From: Halanaerobium saccharolyticum
Lineage (GTDB): Bacteria; Bacillota; Halanaerobiia; Halanaerobiales; Halanaerobiaceae
Assembly: GCF_003259895.1 (NCBI RefSeq)
Contig: NZ_QLME01000028.1
Coordinates: forward strand, 390 to 43,039
Direction of reading: 5' to 3'
DNA: 42,650 nucleotides
This document shows, piece after piece, positions 19,904 to 41,649 of the stretch. The position numbers were made by a program, and so were the translations under genes. Within the stretch, counting starts at the first letter, position 1, and each line of letters begins with the position of its first letter. Under the pieces are notes generated by a model, which was not told the DNA's origin, made no database searches, and was given only the letters and a program-made list of their open reading frames with translations.

Positions 19904-19959
19904 TAAACAAAGTAAAAACATAATAAATTTTAATAGGAAAATGCCTCATCATATCTGAT

Positions 19960-20141
19960 GAGGTAGAGGCGCGAATTTAGAATAGTATTTTTCAACTTCA
20001 GCTTAAACCGCTGTTGGGAAAGAAAGGCTGATTCGCCGAAGTTTTCAGCCAGGGTTTAATGGCTGTCTGCTGGGTCTGTATAAAAAATATACAGGACTGT
20101 CATTAGTAGTTTAATCCAGACTGCTGATGTTGAGCTATCTC
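19960..20141 (+). promoter_or_regulatory. Lysine riboswitch (L box)
   Basis: The conserved L-box elements appear in order: GAGGTAGAGGCGCG at the 5' side, GGGAAAGAAAGGCTGATTCG followed by CCGAAG, then GCTGGGTCTGT, ACAGGACTGTCA and the 3' P1 strand CTATCTC (20135-20141), which pairs with GAGGTAG (19960-19966). A short hairpin CCTCATC/GATGAGG (19944-19963) competes for the 5' P1 strand. High lysine should favour the downstream terminator and switch off lysine and diaminopimelate synthesis. Confidence 0.93.
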
Positions 20142-20178
20142 AAAAGATGGAAGAGGTGATTTCTCTGATTAAGTATTT

Positions 20179-33352: not shown

Positions 33353-34438
33353 ATGAGGTTGAAGTTAAACAAAAGAAAGAATCTGATCTGTGTTAGTTTT
33401 GATTATGATAAAGTTGTGATTAGAAAAATCAATTCAATTCCGGGGAGCCGCTGGAATCCAGAAAGAAAGTACTGGACATTTCAAAATAACTCTACTAACT
33501 TAGCCCTTTTTTTAGAAATGTTTAAGGGTGAGTATTTAATTTTTGAATCTAAAATTAAAGATTTTGCTGGCCCAGAATTAATTGCTGACTATTTTAATCA
33601 TTATTATCTGCCACAATTTGAAAAGAAGCTGAAGTTAAAAGACTATTCTAGAAATTCAATAAAAGCTTATCTTAACCACAATAAATCCTTTATAAAATAT
33701 ATTCAAAAAGATTTATTTGGGATTAAAATGGCCGATGTTAATGATTATGTATTGTATATTTTAGAGGATTTAAACAATACTCATTCTTATGCCAACCAGT
33801 TTATCAGTGCTTTTAAAACTTTTAATAATTTAATTTTACAACTTGATGGAATTAACAATAAATTGCTGCGCCCAAAAAAGAAAAAGAAGCTGCCCAAGGT
33901 TTTAAATAAGAGAGAAGTAAAGGAGATTATTGCTTCTGTTGATAATTTAAAACATCAATTAATATTAATTTTGACTTATTCTGCTGGTCTGAGAGTTAGT
34001 GAAGTTGTGAGATTGAAGATATCTGATATTGACTCTGATAGAATGCTGATATATGTACGTAACAGTAAGGGTTATAAAGATAGGTATACATTGCTGTCCC
34101 AAAACGTTTTAACTAAGCTTAAACTATATGTAAAGGCTTTTCAGATACAAAAATACGATAAGCAGTGGCTTTTCCCCGGTCAGAATAAGGATCGGCATCT
34201 ATCAAAGCGAAGTGCGCAGAAGGTTTTTAAGCGTGCCTGCAAGAAAGCCGGGATAAATAAAGAGGTTGGAATTCACTCGCTGAGACATTCTTTTGCTACT
34301 CATTTATTGGAGCAGGGAGTTGATCTGAGATATATCCAGAATTTACTGGGGCATAAAAGTTCTACCACAACTGAGATCTATACTCATGTGAGCAATAAGA
34401 ATTTGATTGAGATTACTAATCCATTTGATAGTTTATAG
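33353..34438 (+). CDS. Tyrosine recombinase with HARP-like N-terminal module, candidate integron integrase
   Basis: 361 residues. Residues 1-65 resemble the HARP-type module (IRKINSIPGSRWNPERKYWTF), known from SMARCAL1-like proteins that bind branched or single-stranded DNA. Residues of about 75-170 are a core-binding domain and 180-350 the catalytic domain: R214 in YSAGLRVSE, K239 in NSKGYKDR, H308 and R311 in HSLRHSFA, H334 in LGHKSSTTT, Y343 in EIYTHV. The tail NPFDSL recalls the SPLD-x-L tail of integron integrases, but the extra segment that marks classical IntI between the Lys and HxxR motifs is absent. The stop lies 79 bp before the first cassette core, in the same direction as the array. 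The ribosome site is weak and distant. Confidence 0.85.
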   Translation: MRLKLNKRKNLICVSFDYDKVVIRKINSIPGSRWNPERKYWTFQNNSTNLALFLEMFKGEYLIFESKIKDFAGPELIADYFNHYYLPQFEKKLKLKDYSRNSIKAYLNHNKSFIKYIQKDLFGIKMADVNDYVLYILEDLNNTHSYANQFISAFKTFNNLILQLDGINNKLLRPKKKKKLPKVLNKREVKEIIASVDNLKHQLILILTYSAGLRVSEVVRLKISDIDSDRMLIYVRNSKGYKDRYTLLSQNVLTKLKLYVKAFQIQKYDKQWLFPGQNKDRHLSKRSAQKVFKRACKKAGINKEVGIHSLRHSFATHLLEQGVDLRYIQNLLGHKSSTTTEIYTHVSNKNLIEITNPFDSL

Positions 34439-34523
34439 AATGAAGATCTAAACGAAATAACAGTCGTGAAGATTTGCTATTATTGTCTTAATGAACTTTT
34501 ATTCGCAAAGAAGTGAGTTATAC
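34439..34523 (+). other. Candidate attI (primary recombination site)
   Basis: This stretch joins the recombinase stop to the first cassette core GTTATAC (34517-34523). It has no attC-like palindrome, as expected of an attI. It contains ATAACAGTCGT (34457-34467), resembling the TAACAGTC-RTATAAC stretches at the R'' end of several attC-like sites. Placement at the 3' end of the recombinase gene differs from the usual position at the 5' end. Confidence 0.5.
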
Positions 34524-34848
34524 GCAATAATAACTGAACATCAGCAAATAAGAGAAAAAGATAAAAGAAGGGTTGGATCATCGCAAACTGGCATGAACTA
34601 GCTCCTGCAAATGAAGGAAATAATAATTGTAAATTTTCAGCGGCTTTACCAATTAACCTGGATGATTATAATCTACAAAGGTATTTACATATATCAGAAG
34701 CTAAATTAGTCACTGTTTGATTTTCACGCACTTCGTGAAGATGTAATATAGTACAAAGTTAATGAACTTATTTGCTGGTTAAGGAAGAAGAATGATATTT
34801 CATTAAACTGAAGTAAAAAATACTTTTAACGCGGCAAGTTATTACAGC
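34518..34848 (+). other. Cassette 1 body: no evident gene
   Basis: About 330 bp without a convincing reading frame on either strand. It contains a hairpin TTCACG (34723-34728)/CGTGAA (34734-34739) and aligns along its length with cassette 3 (35403-35736), with many scattered substitutions and small indels that follow no codon pattern. It may encode a structured RNA or a promoter. Confidence 0.6.
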
Positions 34849-34980
34849 GTATAACATGGGATTGGCGTCATGCCTTCTGTCATAAAGCTTGCAGGTTAAC
34901 CAATTACGGATACGGAAAAGCAAGCTTTACGCCAGTTCCTGCGGAATCAGGCACGAGCGCAAATCCCAGGGACGTTATAT
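34849..34980 (+). repeat. attC-like site 1
   Basis: R'' GTATAAC (34849-34855), then TGGGATT, a middle stem AAGCTTGC/GCAAGCTT, then AATCCCA, GGGAC and R' GTTATAT (34974-34980). The spacer between R and the inner box is one base on the R'' side and five on the R' side, so the fold is asymmetric as in attC. It is nearly identical to sites 4, 5 and 6 apart from the central loop. Confidence 0.85.
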
Positions 34981-35280
34981 GACATTATAGCAAAAGTTAC
35001 TGCAGCTAAAAAGATCAGAAAAAAGGTTTGGTTATTGCAGGATGATATTTTTATACTTTCTCTGGTGAAAGTAAATAGAAACTGAAAGGTTTTTAACTTA
35101 ACTAAGTGCTCTAAGAAAAGAAAACCGTGATCAATTTTATGAGCGGTTACAGCACTATCTCCAAAACTTCAGACTGATGTTTAAAGTTTTTTGCGGGCAG
35201 GCCGTTGCAAAAAAGGAGATAGAGGTTCGAAGTTTTGAAGATAAATGAGAAATAATAGAGTCGATGTTGCTATAACAGTC
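34981..35280 (+). other. Cassette 2 body: no evident gene, several inverted repeats
   Basis: There is no reading frame of note. AAAACTTC (about 35163-35170) pairs with GAAGTTTT (about 35230-35237), and TATCTCC just before the first arm pairs with GGAGATA (about 35215-35221). A separate short hairpin CTTTC/GAAAG lies near 35057-35072. This suggests a structured RNA, not a protein. Confidence 0.5.
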
Positions 35281-35408
35281 ATATAACATGGGATTAACGG
35301 CATGCCCTCTGGCACAAAGTTAGCACCTGAACAATTGCGGATATGAAAGCTAACTTTGCCCCAGGTCTGTGGACACCGGGTACACCGCGAATCCCAGGGA
35401 CGTTATAT
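35281..35408 (+). repeat. attC-like site 2 (divergent)
   Basis: R'' ATATAAC (35281-35287) and R' GTTATAT (35402-35408) with the inner boxes TGGGATT and AATCCCA conserved. The middle stem differs from the common type (AAAGTTAGC/GCTAACTTT in place of AAGCTTGC/GCAAGCTT) yet is still self-complementary, so the structure is kept while the sequence changes. Confidence 0.85.
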
Positions 35409-35736
35409 GCAATAATAACTGAACATCAGCAAATAAGAGAAAGAGATAAGAGAAGGGTTGAATAATCGCAAACTGAGATGAACTAACTCCTGCAAATGAA
35501 GAAAATAATAACTGCAAGCTTCAAATGGTCTTAACAATAGACTTGGGCAATTATAATTTACAAAATTATTTACATATATCAGAAGGTAAATTAGTCACTG
35601 ATTGATCTTCACGTACTTCGTGAAGATTTAATATAGTACAGAATTCATGAACCTATTTGCTGGTTAAGGAAGAATTTTGATATTTCATTAAGTTGAAGCA
35701 GAAAGAAAAACTTTTTACGTGGCAAGTTATTACAGC
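35409..35736 (+). other. Cassette 3 body: diverged duplicate of cassette 1, no evident gene
   Basis: It aligns with cassette 1 from the first bases to the end. The conserved hairpin is CTTCACG (35607-35613)/CGTGAAG (35619-35625); its closing pair is C-G here and U-G in cassette 1, a compatible change. No shared reading frame is kept. The two copies carry different attC-like sites. Confidence 0.6.
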
Positions 35737-35917
35737 ATATAACAGACCATTGGCGCTACTAGGTATAAAATTGAGCAGCAAGACATCCGTGCCCTTCGGG
35801 ACATGGCTTTTGTCACATCTCTTGCAGCAGCTTAAACAAAAAATGCTGATGAAAGGCAAGAGATGCGCCAACCTAAAGAACAGGACAGCCACGTCGCAAA
35901 TGCTCGGGACGTTAGAC
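35737..35917 (+). repeat. attC-like site 3 (long, divergent)
   Basis: R'' ATATAAC (35737-35743) and R' GTTAGAC (35911-35917) bound a longer site of about 180 bp with arms CATTGGCGC and GCAAATG. R' matches the integron consensus GTTRRRY exactly. R'' and R' do not match each other because R' belongs to cassette 4. Further stems such as CTCTTGC/GCAAGAG and CCCTTCGGG lie inside. Confidence 0.8.
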
Positions 35918-35941
35918 GAAAGAACACTAAAGGAGGATTTT

Positions 35942-37033
35942 ATGAAATTTGAAAAAGTTCTAACGGATGATCCTATAAAAGAAATGTGGAATAGATTAGA
36001 TATACTCTCTACTATTTCTGGAGCTAAAAAATTCTTGAAAGAAAGAATTAATGAAGACTCAGAGATAAGTGAAGAAATTTTAGAAGATAAAGCAAAAGGA
36101 ATTGCATTTTGTATTAGAAGTGCTCGAGAATTTTTTCAAACAGAGATAGACCACAATATGTCTACAGCTAGCATTTCTTTTTATTATGGAACTTTTAATT
36201 TTTTAAGTGCATTATTATTAGCGGATATTGAAAATAATTATACTTTAAAAGATATTGAAAAATTTTCAAGTTATGGGCATGGATTTAAACTTTTTAATAA
36301 TACTGATGAAGAAAAAATATTAAAAAGAGACAATTTAATTGTTAATTCTAATGGTTTCTTTTATAAATTTTTAAAAGAATTAAATTATGATGAAAACTTA
36401 ATATCTATGCAAGGTAAATATTATTCATTAGAAGAGGTTGAAGAGGAAGAAAAATATAAAATAATTGATATAAAAGAACTTATTTCTAGAATACCTGAAT
36501 TGAGAAATACTTTTATTGAAATTTTTAATGAACAACCATTATATTTAAATTTAAATTGTAGATATAATTTAACTGATCAAGAGCTATTTGTTAAATTTCC
36601 TTTCGACAAAAATTCTCCTTATCTATCAGATGAAGATATCTATCAAATTTTGGATTGGCCAAATGATATTGAGTTATCTCAAAAAATAGAGACTTCAAGG
36701 TTAAAAATTATTACAAGGGACAAAATAAATAAAAATATAATACCTGATAAAAAAGAATTACATAAAAGTGTTTTGTGTTACGATTGTTATATTAAACCTT
36801 TATTGGGTATAGAAGATATATTTTTAATTTACTTTATGTTTTTATATGTGTTAAGTATTTGGACAAGATATAGACCTAATTTATGGAGAGAAATAGTTGA
36901 AGGTAGGTTTGATATATACAGACCCCTTATAACTAAATTTTTAACCTCTTCTGAAAGGATATTACCAAATATTTTTTTAAATAAAATATATAATAGAAGA
37001 TTTTTATTTACCGGACATTCTTATTTGGGTTAA
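35942..37033 (+). CDS. YaaC-like protein (cassette 4)
   Basis: 363 residues from ATG 35942, with AGGAGG (35931-35936) 5 nt upstream. The frame is open further upstream, but only through the attC-like site. The start MWNRLDILSTISGAKKFLKE, the helix with SFYYGTFNFLSALLLAD and the C-terminal YVLSIWTRYRPNLWREIVEG resemble YaaC-like proteins, whose function is unknown. The DNA is very AT-rich with an Asn/Lys/Ile-heavy protein, consistent with foreign origin. It fills one cassette, in array direction. Confidence 0.75.
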   Translation: MKFEKVLTDDPIKEMWNRLDILSTISGAKKFLKERINEDSEISEEILEDKAKGIAFCIRSAREFFQTEIDHNMSTASISFYYGTFNFLSALLLADIENNYTLKDIEKFSSYGHGFKLFNNTDEEKILKRDNLIVNSNGFFYKFLKELNYDENLISMQGKYYSLEEVEEEEKYKIIDIKELISRIPELRNTFIEIFNEQPLYLNLNCRYNLTDQELFVKFPFDKNSPYLSDEDIYQILDWPNDIELSQKIETSRLKIITRDKINKNIIPDKKELHKSVLCYDCYIKPLLGIEDIFLIYFMFLYVLSIWTRYRPNLWREIVEGRFDIYRPLITKFLTSSERILPNIFLNKIYNRRFLFTGHSYLG

Positions 37034-37050
37034 CAGCACAGTGTTCCTTC

Positions 37051-37183
37051 GTCTAACATGGGATTGGCGCCATGCCTTCTGTCATAAAGCTTGCAGATTA
37101 ACCAATCACGGATATGGAAATGCAAGCTTTACGCCAGTTCCTAACGGAACCAGGCACGAGCGCAAATCCCAGGGACGTTATAC
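37051..37183 (+). repeat. attC-like site 4
   Basis: R'' GTCTAAC (37051-37057) matches the start of cassette 4 (GTTAGAC), while R' is GTTATAC (37177-37183), the start of cassette 5. Between them the sequence is nearly the same as site 1. This change of core between neighbouring cassettes is strong evidence for recombination at G^TT. Confidence 0.87.
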
Positions 37184-37739
37184 GACATTAAACTGAGCGA
37201 GTATGTTTTCAATTTGGAAGGAACGAGATGGATTTGTAAAATCCTCTTAGGTAATTCAAGAGCATTAATAATAATTAAATCAGTAATTTTAGATCTTATG
37301 GTTAAGATCAAAATAATTACCGGTTAATCGCTTTTGAAAAATTTTAGATGTAAAGTCTTAATGAGCAAAAAGTGTAAAAAGTTATTGAGCGTTAAAAAAT
37401 ATTTTTAGTAAATCTTTAATGAAGTAAGTTTCATAAAGATAGCAAATTCAATATATCAATGAGAGATACTGCACCATATGGTTATAATTTAATAAAAGAA
37501 AAGAGATAATAAAAGATTTATCCGCCTAACAGTCATAGTCGTGACATTAGGCTGGGTCAAGTGTCTTTATTGCTTAGAAGTTCCGAGATGGATTTATAAA
37601 ATATTCATAACTAAAAAGGAATAATTAAAAGTTTTCTCCTGTAAAATAAAGGTGATTTTTTCTTTTAATTGAATTATTAATTATAGTTTAGAATATTATA
37701 GAATTGAAAAAAATTTAAAGGGGAGAGATATTATTTAAT
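37184..37739 (+). other. Cassette 5 upstream region without gene
   Basis: There are 556 bp with no clear gene. A repeated segment CGAGATGGATTT-TAAAAT occurs at 37224-37242 and 37584-37602, each about 40-47 bp after a core-like sequence. Between them GCCTAAC (37524-37530) and ATTAGGC (37546-37552) form a short inverted repeat that looks like a collapsed recombination site. Two related cassettes may have fused here. Confidence 0.4.
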
Positions 37740-38372
37740 ATGGCAAAAACAAAAAAGATTGATCAAAATAAAATGATGGAAATTTTAGATTGGAGTTATG
37801 ATAAAGCTTTAAACGGATTACCTAGATGTCCTACAGCTCAAGAATTAGCAAATGACTATTTAAGTAAAAAAAATAGTGTAGATGAAGCAGTAAATTCTTT
37901 GATTAAGTGGCAAAATAGTAAATGTGGAACATCTGGTTTTATATCTGGACTAGGAGGAATAATAACATTACCTGTAGCATTACCAGCAAATATTACAAGT
38001 GTTATATATATTCAAATTCGAATGATTGCTGCAATTGCTTACATGGGAAAATATGATCTAAAATCTGATCAAGTGAGGTCATTAGTCTACATATGTTTAT
38101 GTGGAAACTCTGCAAAAGATATCTCTAAAAATATAGGAATTAAATTAGGAACAAAATTATCCAAAAGTGCTATAAATAAAATATCTGGAAAAACATTAAC
38201 AAAGATAAATCAAAAAGTTGGATTTAGACTGGTTACAAAATTTGGCCAAAAAGGTGTAATAAATATGGGTAAAGCTATACCTGTAGTTGGTGGATTAATT
38301 GGAGGCACAATGGATGTAGTAGCTACAAATACTATAGGAAAAGTATCAAAGAAGACATTTATAAATAACTAA
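37740..38372 (+). CDS. EcsC-family protein (cassette 5)
   Basis: 210 residues. The core TSGFISGLGGIITLPVALPA, NITSVIYIQIRMIAAIAYMGKYDL and the Gly-rich end IPVVGGLIGGTMDVVATNTIG match the EcsC family, membrane-associated proteins of unclear role. There is no signal peptide; one or two hydrophobic helices are present. A GGGGAG site lies about 14 nt upstream of the ATG. It has its own terminator. Confidence 0.75.
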   Translation: MAKTKKIDQNKMMEILDWSYDKALNGLPRCPTAQELANDYLSKKNSVDEAVNSLIKWQNSKCGTSGFISGLGGIITLPVALPANITSVIYIQIRMIAAIAYMGKYDLKSDQVRSLVYICLCGNSAKDISKNIGIKLGTKLSKSAINKISGKTLTKINQKVGFRLVTKFGQKGVINMGKAIPVVGGLIGGTMDVVATNTIGKVSKKTFINN

Positions 38373-38387
38373 AAAATAGAAATAATG

Positions 38388-38441
38388 ATACTCGTTAACT
38401 CATTAAATGAATATGTTTAAGAGTTAATGAGTATATTTTTT
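38388..38441 (+). terminator. Terminator inside cassette 5
   Basis: 14-bp arms (38388-38401 and 38421-38434), which pair fully apart from one G-U, are followed by A and six T. It ends the EcsC-like transcript before the cassette's recombination site. Confidence 0.8.
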
Positions 38442-38495
38442 AAGAAATCAAAATAATAAAGAAATAGTAATTAAGAGAGCTGTCGTTTAACAGTC

Positions 38496-38627
38496 GTATA
38501 ACATGGGATTGGCGTCATGCCTTCTGTCATAAAGCTTGCAAAATTCAGCAGCAAGAAATATTACAGCAAGCTTTACGCCAGTTCCTAACGGAATCAGGCA
38601 CAAGCGCAAATCCCAGTAACGTTATAT
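38496..38627 (+). repeat. attC-like site 5
   Basis: R'' GTATAAC (38496-38502) and R' GTTATAT (38621-38627). The outer and middle stems are as in site 1, but the terminal loop sequence differs completely and the usual CCCAGGGAC reads CCCAGTAAC. Variation is confined to loop and spacer, consistent with selection on the fold. Confidence 0.85.
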
Positions 38628-38663
38628 GACATAGGGCTAAAACTATTTGGAGATGAAACTATT

Positions 38664-39368
38664 ATGGATATTTTAAGTAGAATTATTTCTGTTATTTCTT
38701 TATGTGTTGCAATAATAGCAGCTTTATATGTGAAAAAGCAAACAGAAATTAATAAAGATCATCTTACAGAATATAAAAATCAATATATTTTAAAAAACGA
38801 TGTAGTTTTTTCAATTAAATGGGGCACAGATATTCTTGTTCCTAAATCTAAAAGATATATAGAAAACAAAAAACTTCTTGGTAATTCCTCAGTTTATAAA
38901 GATAAAGACGGGATTTTAAAAGAAATAGATGATAGAATAGTTACTTTATCAATAGAAAATATAAGTGAAATAAAGGCAAAGAACTTAGAAATTGAATGGG
39001 AAATTCATATGCCTTCAATTTATAGTTTTATTCATGAAATGGAGTTAGAATTTCAAGAAGATAATGAGATAAAGAAATATGGTTTTAAGACATTAGGAAA
39101 AAAGAATTATAACCAAATAAATTCTTTTGAAAGTAAAAATATACCTGCTTTTTATATTGGCAAAATACCAATTGTTATTTTAAAAATTAACAAGATTTTC
39201 TATCAAAAAGAAGGTGAAACAAATTATAGAGTTGCTAATTGTAAAAATATAAAAGGCAATATTAATTTTAAAGTTCAACATAAAAATGTAGTAGAAGATA
39301 TTAATGAGGATATAATATTAAAAGGTAGCAAAAATGACTGGAATAATTTCAAGAACTTTGATAATTAA
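38664..39368 (+). CDS. Membrane-anchored protein of unknown function (cassette 6)
   Basis: 234 residues. One N-terminal membrane helix (IISVISLCVAIIAALYV, residues of about 7-23) is followed by a soluble region rich in Lys, Ile, Glu and Asn, with beta-strand-like segments such as RIVTLSIENISEIKAKNLEI. I recognise no family. It is alone in its cassette, in array direction, with GGAG about 13 nt upstream of the ATG. Confidence 0.65.
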   Translation: MDILSRIISVISLCVAIIAALYVKKQTEINKDHLTEYKNQYILKNDVVFSIKWGTDILVPKSKRYIENKKLLGNSSVYKDKDGILKEIDDRIVTLSIENISEIKAKNLEIEWEIHMPSIYSFIHEMELEFQEDNEIKKYGFKTLGKKNYNQINSFESKNIPAFYIGKIPIVILKINKIFYQKEGETNYRVANCKNIKGNINFKVQHKNVVEDINEDIILKGSKNDWNNFKNFDN

Positions 39369-39388
39369 TCACTAGACAGCCCTACGTC

Positions 39389-39520
39389 ATATAACATGGG
39401 ATTGGCGTCATGACTTCTGTCATAAAGCTTGCAATTTAACCAATTACGGATATGAAAAAGCAAGCTTTACGCCAGTTCCTGCGGAAACAGTCACGAGCGC
39501 AAATCCCAGGGACGTTATAT
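39389..39520 (+). repeat. attC-like site 6
   Basis: R'' ATATAAC (39389-39395) and R' GTTATAT (39514-39520), nearly identical to site 1. The sequence just before R'' (AGCCCTACGTC) complements the start of cassette 6 beyond the core, with one mismatch over 18 bp. Confidence 0.87.
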
Positions 39521-39568
39521 GAAACCGTAGCAAACGCTTTAACAACTAAAAACTTATAGCATAAAGAA

Positions 39569-39596
39569 AACAGTGCCATTGACCTTCAGCACTGTT
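39569..39596 (-). terminator. Terminator of the toxin-antitoxin pair
   Basis: Arms AACAGTGC (39569-39576) and GCACTGTT (39589-39596), with a T-rich tail on the minus strand. It overlaps the antitoxin stop codon. Confidence 0.7.
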
Positions 39597-39873
39597 AATT
39601 AAATCTAATTTCAAGTTTTTTACCAAGTGCGTGAGCAACTTTATCAAGAAATTCAACACTTGGATTATAATCATCATTTTCTAGTCTGGAGATAGCAGAT
39701 TGTTTAGTTCCTATTTTATCTGCCAATTCTTTTTGAGTTAAATTATTTTCTATTCTATACCTAATAATTTGTTTTTTTATTTCATACATAACTTTCAATT
39801 TTTCATATTCTTCTTTAACTTCTTCAGATTCAAATAGTTCATTTTTAAGATCTTTATGATCTATAAATTCCAT
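39595..39873 (-). CDS. HigA-type XRE antitoxin (cassette 7)
   Basis: 92 residues with a helix-turn-helix of the Cro/C1 type: YRIENNLTQKELADKIGTKQ, then SAISRLENDDYNPSVEFLDK (residues of about 38-77). It should bind and neutralise the upstream-encoded toxin and repress the operon. It lies 11 bp after the toxin gene, in toxin-first HigBA order, on the strand opposite to the array. Confidence 0.87.
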   Translation of the reverse strand: MEFIDHKDLKNELFESEEVKEEYEKLKVMYEIKKQIIRYRIENNLTQKELADKIGTKQSAISRLENDDYNPSVEFLDKVAHALGKKLEIRFN

Positions 39874-39884
39874 TTTGTTTCACC

Positions 39885-40220
39885 TCACTTGATAGAATTA
39901 AGTCTATTAAGAGCAATATTTATTTCTCTCTGTGGAGTTTTGTTAGATTTCTTCTTAAAGATATGCAAAAGAACAAAGATACCATCCTTATAATTTAAAA
40001 AGAAGACCCTAAATATATTAGAACTATACTTTATTCGTAATTCCCAAAGATCATCATATCCCTTTAACTTTTTAAGATGTGGCATACCAAGAAATAGACC
40101 AAATTCTTCTAGAAGTTCTATTTCTCTTAGAATTTTAGCCTTTTCTTTAGCTGACTGTTCTTTAATAAATTCAATTACTGGAGATTTATTATTTTTTGCA
40201 TAATACTTAATTTTATACAT
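39885..40220 (-). CDS. HigB/RelE-type toxin (cassette 7)
   Basis: 111 residues of the Gp49/HigB-like family of ribosome-dependent mRNA interferases: MPHLKKLKGYDDLWELRI, then FRVFFLNYKDGIFVLLHIFK and the basic KKKSNKTPQREIN tail typical of the fold. The start follows GGAGTGA. A TATAAT on the minus strand (40253-40248) could be its -10 box. Such pairs are common in large integron arrays, where they stabilise the array; that role is inferred here. Confidence 0.87.
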   Translation of the reverse strand: MYKIKYYAKNNKSPVIEFIKEQSAKEKAKILREIELLEEFGLFLGMPHLKKLKGYDDLWELRIKYSSNIFRVFFLNYKDGIFVLLHIFKKKSNKTPQREINIALNRLNSIK

Positions 40221-40309
40221 AATTTATTCACTCCAATTTCTAAATTTATTATATCACACATATGTTATAAAAGGAAGTAAAAATTTAAGATTAAGCTTAC
40301 TCAAACTTC

Positions 40310-40329
40310 GCACTTGTAAAAGTGCTTTT
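40310..40329 (+). other. Small hairpin between cassette 7 and the IS4 element
   Basis: Perfect 6-bp arms GCACTT (40310-40315) and AAGTGC (40320-40325) with four T after. It may be a weak terminator shielding the transposase from array transcription. Confidence 0.5.
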
Positions 40330-40364
40330 GCACCTTGAAATTTCAATATTATTTAGCAAAAAAA

Positions 40365-40435
40365 TAGCATGAAACCCCCGTTTCTGGTATAATTGAATAG
40401 CAAAAAACAAAAAACCATAACGGAGGTTCATGCTA
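40365..40435 (+). promoter_or_regulatory. IS4-element end: promoter and ribosome-site-masking inverted repeat
   Basis: TAGCATGAA (40365-40373), continuing to CCGTT (40382), pairs with 40419-40435, which contains the ribosome site GGAGG and the A of the start codon. An extended -10 TGGTATAAT (ending at about 40393) lies between the arms. Transcripts entering from outside would fold and hide the start; transcripts from the internal promoter would not. Confidence 0.6.
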
Positions 40436-41649
40436 TGAAAATTATACCACAAATTTACCAGAATGATAAGAAGATTTTTTCTACTGTTTCAACTTTTTTT
40501 AAAAAATATCGAATAGCTTCTGTTTTAAAAGCTGCAAACGCCTATAAAACTAAGGGAGTTCCTGTAAGCTCAATCTTTTTCTATCTGTTTTCTCTGATTT
40601 TTGATAACCGTTCCATGTATATGGATATTTTAACAGGGAAAAATGAAAAAGATTTTGCTAAAGACACTGTTTATCGCTTTATGAAATCTATCAATATTAA
40701 CTGGATACAGTTCACAACCCTTTTATCTGGTAGAATCATTGATGACAGCATTGAGCATTTAACAAATAATGATCGTGTAAACGTTCTGATTATTGATGAT
40801 ACAACCTTTGAGCGTTCAAGATCCAAAAAAGTTGAACTGCTTGCCAAAATATATGATCATGCCAAAAAACAGTATAAATTTGGCTTTAGATTACTTACTC
40901 TCGGCTGGTCAGATGGAAACACATTCCTGCCAGTTAATGGCTGTCTGCTCTCTACTAAAAACTCTAAAAATCGAATTAATGAAGCAGTTGAAGTTGACAA
41001 ACGTACTGTCGGTTATTCCAGAAGAAAACTTGCTCAGACTAAAGCTACTAAAGTTATGCTTGAACTGCTTGAAGCTGCTAAAAAAGCAGCTATACCGGCA
41101 TCTCATGTACTTTTTGATACCTGGTTTTGTTCTCCATCTTCTCTGATTGCTGTCAAAAATATTGGCTATGATGTAATAGCCATGGCTAAAAAGACTTCTA
41201 AAGTGCATTATCTTTACAATGGTGAAATGCAGCCTTTAACAAAGATCTTCAGAGAAAACAGAAAACGTCGTGGTAGATCTCGTTATCTTCTTTCTGTAGA
41301 AGTTACTGTAGTTAAAGATGGACAGTCTATCCCTGCCCGTATTGTCTATGTTCGCAACCGAAACAAACGAAATGAATATCTTGCTCTAATAACTACTGAC
41401 ATGAAGTTAACTGAAGAAGAAGTTATCAGAATCTACGGCAAACGCTGGGAGATAGAAGTATTCTTTAAGGTTTGCAAGTCATATCTAAAACTGAGTAAAG
41501 AATGCAGATCATTATCGTATGATGCTATGACAGCTCATACAGCAATTGTCTTTACAAGATACATGTTACTGTCAGTAGAAAACAGAAAATATGCAGATGA
41601 CAGAACACTTGGGCAAATGTTTTATCTTCTGGTTGATGAAATGGTGTAG
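40435..41649 (+). CDS. IS4-family transposase
   Basis: 404-residue DDE transposase. The first Asp is in VLIIDDTTFERSRSKK, the second in SHVLFDTWFCSPSS, and the C-terminal IS4 signature Y-2-R-3-E-6-K is exact in IYGKRWEIEVFFKVCKSYLK. The sequence is uninterrupted, so it may be active. ATG 40435 is chosen because GGAGG (40422-40426) lies 8 nt upstream. The outer boundaries of the element were not resolved. It lies where the 3' attC of cassette 7 should be. Confidence 0.87.
   Translation: MKIIPQIYQNDKKIFSTVSTFFKKYRIASVLKAANAYKTKGVPVSSIFFYLFSLIFDNRSMYMDILTGKNEKDFAKDTVYRFMKSININWIQFTTLLSGRIIDDSIEHLTNNDRVNVLIIDDTTFERSRSKKVELLAKIYDHAKKQYKFGFRLLTLGWSDGNTFLPVNGCLLSTKNSKNRINEAVEVDKRTVGYSRRKLAQTKATKVMLELLEAAKKAAIPASHVLFDTWFCSPSSLIAVKNIGYDVIAMAKKTSKVHYLYNGEMQPLTKIFRENRKRRGRSRYLLSVEVTVVKDGQSIPARIVYVRNRNKRNEYLALITTDMKLTEEEVIRIYGKRWEIEVFFKVCKSYLKLSKECRSLSYDAMTAHTAIVFTRYMLLSVENRKYADDRTLGQMFYLLVDEMV

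Follow-up and report, generated by a model that had tools for sequence, protein, structure and literature searches.

The gene cassettes of an integron-like array in Halanaerobium saccharolyticum begin and end with sequences that are complementary over 17–19 bp and form a stem of two parts, namely an inner helix that includes the R box and, beyond a constant non-matching step, an outer helix with a different sequence in each cassette. Our preferred interpretation, which we consider fairly likely, is that Bacillota possess an integron-like system in which the attC site, folded in the cassette circle, ends in a stem of two parts that has been selected for the re-integration or capture of cassettes. 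The inner half of the complementarity is known, and the outer half was not known before; in the open-access literature, we found no paper on Halanaerobium integrons or on such extended cassette ends.

Organization of the cassette array

The window, i.e., the whole stretch of 42,650 nucleotides that was analyzed, contains the recombinase gene and the array with the following features:

33353..34438, + strand: tyrosine recombinase, 361 aa, in the orientation of the cassettes (Phage_integrase, E 2.4e-42)
33353..33592, + strand: extra N-terminal domain of the recombinase, ~80 aa, bb-a-bb-a (pLDDT 89)
34439..34516, + strand: putative attI, between the recombinase gene and cassette 1
34517..34855, + strand: cassette 1, 339 bp, ORF-less; 34517-34535 pairs with 34837-34855 (17/19); start helix 34517-34526 and 34528-34535, end helix 34837-34844 and 34846-34855
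34849..34980, + strand: attC 1, R'' GTATAAC and R' GTTATAT, hairpin of VCR size
34974..35287, + strand: cassette 2, 314 bp, ORF-less; 34974-34993 pairs with 35267-35287, with one extra base in the step, on the end side; outer helix 34985-34993 with 35267-35275
35281..35408, + strand: attC 2
35402..35743, + strand: cassette 3, 342 bp, ORF-less; 35402-35420 pairs with 35725-35743 (17/19); outer helix 35413-35420 with 35725-35732
35737..35917, + strand: attC 3, inner hairpin different and longer
35911..37057, + strand: cassette 4, YaaC-family gene 35942-37033; 35911-35928 pairs with 37040-37057 (17/18); outer helix 35922-35928 with 37040-37046
37051..37183, + strand: attC 4
37177..38502, + strand: cassette 5, EcsC-family gene 37740-38372; 37177-37193 pairs with 38485-38502, with one extra base in the step; outer helix 37188-37193 with 38485-38490
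38496..38627, + strand: attC 5
38621..39395, + strand: cassette 6, gene 38664-39368 without a family match; 38621-38638 pairs with 39378-39395 (17/18); outer helix 38632-38638 with 39378-39384
39389..39520, + strand: attC 6
39514..40299 (approximate), + strand: cassette 7, truncated, end lost to an IS; genes for an XRE-type antitoxin and a RelE/Gp49-type toxin (Pfam) on the - strand

The attC sites have R''/R' boxes and an imperfect hairpin, with the bottom strand being the more stable one. The candidate attI contains a stretch, TTAATGAACTTTTATTCGCAAAnnnnnnAGTTA, that is conserved at the equivalent place in related loci (L011, L012, L014 and G022, in a five-genome comparison). Cassette 7, which the preliminary description of this DNA does not list, is interrupted by an insertion sequence near 40300 (region 39514-41649) and is 93% identical over 787 columns to an intact 885-bp cassette of another genome (G014), which still has the end GCTACGGCATCATATAAC; the array probably once extended past this cassette.

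The ORF-less cassettes of ~310 bp and ~340 bp are multicopy, often alternate with gene cassettes and contain a small conserved hairpin, CTTCACGCACTTCGTGAAG; the 340-bp cassette is found in 47 places across 7 Halanaerobium genomes, and at least 35 copies of the cassette 1 family were collected. Cassettes are shared and shuffled between genomes, a pattern that, as far as can be read from the sequences, is consistent with excision of circles and integration at attI. The YaaC-family gene occurs as a cassette in a Vibrio superintegron as well (L063, 34154-35215). An Rfam search of the array gave no family matches; elsewhere in the window, there is a lysine riboswitch (19956-20145, + strand).

Two helices at the cassette ends

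All six start/end pairings to which the preliminary description of this DNA had drawn attention are present. When the start of each cassette (S) is compared with its reverse-complemented end (E'), the motif GTTAxxYG[A/C]x is identical in both, and this inner helix, comprising the R box and its extension, occupies positions 1–10. Base 11 never matches: the start has A in every case (78/78 cassettes in the order), and E' has G in nearly all. It is followed by 6–9 identical bases, different in each cassette, after which there is no match, so that the outer helix usually consists of 7–8 bp at positions 12–18/19. The imperfect step, initially assigned to bases 8–10, lies at bases 10–11. The claim that the complementarity goes far past the attC core holds beyond approximately base 11 but not for the first 9–11 bp, which are ordinary in classical integrons, most cassettes of which have 9–11 consecutive complementary nucleotides (PMC2727003).

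Arrays were gathered beside homologous recombinases in the order and in the phylum, and around copies of the 340-bp cassette. The resulting collection, which is dominated by one genus, comprises 196 cassettes, 150 of them with distinct ends; when one is taken per homologous family, 125 remain, from ~20 Bacillota genomes. To locate the attC sites, an ad hoc script searched for TAAC...CGTTA sequences that have an inner stem and fold stably; it replaced a finder with a fold-based filter that had missed many sites; the script, too, misses some sites, and some of the "cassettes" are composites of two.

Among the 125 independent cassettes, the mean matched run after base 11 is 5.3 nt between own ends and 1.3 nt between random partners, and runs of at least 5 nt are seen in 63% of own ends compared with 0.7% of other ends. 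The summed run is 668 for own ends, and the best of 20,000 partner permutations reaches 214; this permutation within the same set rules out chance or base composition as the cause, and inflation through cassette copies is removed by taking one cassette per homologous family. Linear neighbors, i.e., the end of cassette i and the start of cassette i+1, match over 1.38 nt, which is the level of random partners. In the mutual information between the two ends, the maximum lies on the diagonal at each position from 12 to 19, with z of 46 at 13–14, 12 at 18 and 5 at 19, and background is reached from position 20 on; at positions 13–18, all four pair types occur. End-to-end covariation is present between unrelated cassettes. 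Complementarity is absent between non-matching ones; equal complementarity there was one of the two results by which the preliminary description would have been refuted.

In ~37% of the independent cassettes (46 of the 125), the outer run is shorter than 5 nt; such short outer helices, of 3–4 bp, are seen in about one cassette in three. The R-box match is intact in 24 of these, with the first 3 bp kept at 92%, and 15 others resemble composites or rearrangements. In the 24 cassettes with a perfect inner helix, the outer match is short, often of three base pairs, and many have the ends G-T-N-C-G versus A-T-N-C-T. Cassettes with a short outer match possibly represent a second class of ends.

Covariation within cassette families

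The covariation is also found inside homologous families, of which there are 18. In the largest (289–342 bp, ORF-less), the outer helix is TAATAACT, TAATAATT, TAATGATT or TACTAACT, with both ends matched in 33 of the 35 copies, and in the second, it is TTATGACA, TTATAGCA or TTATAACA, matched in 12/12. On trees built for these two families from the cassette bodies, with the ends left out, 11 changes in the outer helix are double, i.e., both ends change to a matching base on the same branch, and 6 are one-sided; at the control positions 21–32, there are 2 double and 69 one-sided changes. To judge from this comparison, which is the one that the preliminary description had proposed and which did not refute it, the outer helix varies freely in sequence, and its pairing is kept.

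Distribution of the outer helix

In a Vibrio superintegron used as a control (46 sites, 41 distinct cassettes), own ends covary at positions 5–10, and there is no covariation at positions 11–24 (z <2 beyond position 10), although as many Halanaerobium cassettes suffice to show it clearly at 12–18. In the few class 1 cassettes compared, the match stops at 9–12 bases. The initial assertion that the complementarity is longer than in classical integrons is borne out against this one superintegron and these few class 1 cassettes. Its further proposal, that recombination or cassette formation would use a longer folded substrate, is supported in part.

The same layout and the same step are found in nine Bacillota genomes outside the order, where the inner part of attC is quite different (~62–176 bp), and the 22 cassettes from these nine genomes show the outer match on their own. 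At the threshold applied, 23 of the 299 genomes sampled from the phylum have relatives of the recombinase, and arrays with the outer-helix layout adjoin several of these relatives. An IntI above the cut-off is present in one genome of the phylum (G159), with no array on its 4-kb contig; neither is there an array on the contigs of the relatives from Bacteroidetes (L015–L017).

Predicted folding of the circle junction

With DNA folding parameters, the mean free energy of the circle junction is -39.1 kcal/mol on the bottom strand, compared with -30.2 for the linear site and -29.9 for a site with a random start. The junction gains 8.9 kcal/mol over the linear site and is the more stable of the two in 156 of the 165 sites. 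On the top strand, the gain from the circle is 7.5 kcal/mol, with an overall value of -33.2; these folding energies point to the bottom strand as most likely the folded one. Within the outer helix, wobble pairs are too few to reveal a strand preference (3 favor the bottom strand and 2 the top). On the bottom strand, T pairs with G at the base 11 step in 68 of 78 cases. The statement that the full stem exists only in the circle is correct for the stem as a continuation of attC, but a linear single strand could pair the two ends across the whole cassette.

The recombinase

H. saccharolyticum, H. congolense and H. kushneri have close homologs of the recombinase. The protein narrowly passes the model for site-specific tyrosine recombinases/integron integrases (NF040815, 226.3 bits, cut-off 220) and remains under the cut-off of the integron integrase model (TIGR02249, 194.6 bits, cut-off 265), the latter match being interrupted between model positions 180 and 231, with 181–230 unmatched. 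In an alignment with IntI1 and the Vibrio IntI, two gaps coincide with the IntI-specific segment; they are common to all relatives from the phylum and absent from L152, the sole IntI of the phylum. Judged by its sequence, the recombinase of the array is not an IntI. Integron integrases have been described as needing an IntI-specific domain, according to the title of Messier and Roy (2001) as cited in PMC2426708.

In a search with the model of the whole protein, the best structural matches are XerA (PDB 5hxy, 4a8e) and the Vibrio IntI. For the extra N-terminal domain, the HARP model (PF07443) matches three relatives at E 0.008–0.04 (14.0–16.2 bits, cut-off 25), the top Foldseek rows are the N-terminal domain of archaeal XPB (E 0.13) and the HARP domain of SMARCAL1 (E 0.68), and the structural comparison (VIA) gives Z of 5.6 and 4.0. 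HARP and XPB damage-recognition domains are readers of DNA structure. We regard the modeled likeness to these domains as a lead only.

The association of the outer helix with the N-terminal domain is confounded by ancestry. In one genome (G022), there is a long array, yet the recombinase frame is without the domain; in another (G160), the array has the outer helix, and a recombinase with the N-terminal domain was not found in the genome. Two relatives that lack the domain (L029, L081) lie immediately before, or overlap with, a frame resembling an IS91-family transposase, apparently as two-gene mobile units, and are probably something else.

Possible origin and function of the outer helix

Several explanations of the outer helix have to be weighed against a role in cassette movement. 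One is templated repair, in which a folded single-stranded circle is mended from one arm and the ends evolve in concert, with no benefit from pairing. We consider this unlikely, even if it would yield private, freely varying matched ends together with matched double changes: repair of this kind should erase the A/G step at base 11, yet the step is kept in every cassette, and it provides no reason for the limit at 18–19 nt or for the absence of the outer helix in Vibrio.

Distinctly less probable is the possibility that the cassettes were formed from a stem-loop or by the copying of short ends, with the pairing left as a frozen, functionless trace. Unrelated cassettes indeed have unrelated 7-mers, and the length is almost fixed, but a frozen trace would decay one-sidedly, whereas double changes outnumber single ones (11 vs 6) in diverged copies; because matched changes occur inside families, this origin of the pairing is improbable.

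Slightly more doubtful still, in our view, is a role at the RNA level, whereby the cassette ends would pair in the transcript and mark a unit for processing or stabilize it, in a manner comparable to the stems involved in rRNA processing. Both ends can be on one transcript and the pairing is within the cassette, as this would require. Nevertheless, the arms are up to ~4 kb apart, ORF-less cassettes have the outer helix as well, and in a transcript the constant step would read A-C, in contrast to the weak T-G pair of the bottom strand. Furthermore, the outer helix runs straight on from the R box of attC, and in classical integrons the pairing of own ends at the R box is part of recombination (PMC2727003).

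It is highly improbable that we are dealing with ordinary R-box complementarity that is slightly longer in an AT-rich genome: the inner 9–11 bp are the same as in classical integrons (PMC2727003), but the constant mismatch at base 11 divides two helices, positions 12–18 covary here but, with equal numbers of cassettes, not in Vibrio, and random partners from the same genomes fail to match, so that the Vibrio and class 1 controls rule out such an extension.

Given its recurrence in the phylum and the evolution of its positions as matched pairs, we infer that the outer helix very probably is a working part of cassette movement. Under the scheme that we favor, with the attC stem completed in the circle, the array would be run by a tyrosine recombinase of the Xer/XerA type without the IntI-specific segment. 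The attC site, completed in the closed circle, would fold on one strand, most likely the bottom one, with a terminal stem composed of an R-box helix of ~10 bp, the conserved step at base 11 with its non-standard pair (A facing C in the top strand, T facing G in the bottom one) and the private outer helix, usually of 7–8 bp. Since the T-G pair of the bottom strand is weak and its counterpart in the top strand is A-C, the step may introduce a kink or serve to mark the strand. The outer helix most likely would lend stability to the folded site, or label it, when the circle is intact, so that the recombinase, possibly via its extra N-terminal domain, would capture and re-integrate it. Sites within the array take R'' and R' from two different cassettes and lack the outer helix; these linear sites would recombine less, and integration would be favored over excision. 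We infer the folding in the cell, the use of the site by the recombinase, the strand, the role of the N-terminal domain and the directional effect.

Tentatively, we also entertain the possibility that Bacillota have a cassette system of their own, independent of IntI, in which the HARP/XPB-like domain reads the structure and the private closing helix proves that the circle is intact. If so, the helix would amount to a self-recognition check that favors capture over loss. The literature describes Firmicutes as almost without integrons (PMC9024848). Point changes can break and restore the outer helix with the R box left untouched; therefore, both the drive toward integration over excision and recognition without an IntI-specific domain are directly testable.

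Comparison with known systems

The N-terminal domain shares a weak likeness of sequence and fold with the HARP domain of SMARCAL1 and with archaeal XPB, from which it differs in that all matches are under the curated cut-offs and Z is <6. With XerA-type recombinases (NF040815), the protein shares the catalytic part and the best model and structural matches, and it differs from them in the added domain and in its location at a cassette array. XerA acts on dif-like double-stranded sites.

In the IntegronFinder 2.0 survey, Firmicutes are represented by one complete integron and a few CALIN (PMC9024848). The latter resemble the Halanaerobium locus in being attC arrays in this phylum without a recognized IntI, whereas here a recombinase gene is present at the array. 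Since this recombinase fails the IntI model, the locus would be scored as integrase-less; arrays like that of Halanaerobium may be among the reported Firmicutes CALIN, with their recombinase unrecognized.

Classical integrons (IntI/attC, i.e., class 1 and the Vibrio VCRs) have in common with the Halanaerobium array the cassettes separated by hairpins, the RYYYAAC/GTTRRRY ends, VCR-sized sites, the match of own R''/R' over 9–11 nt in the circle, and an array that lies beside a tyrosine recombinase gene and a stretch resembling attI. In contrast to them, the Halanaerobium recombinase carries an extra N-terminal domain but no IntI-specific segment, its gene is oriented as the cassettes are, and the pairing of the cassette ends, instead of stopping at ~11 nt, continues past the constant step at base 11 into an outer helix of 7–8 bp.
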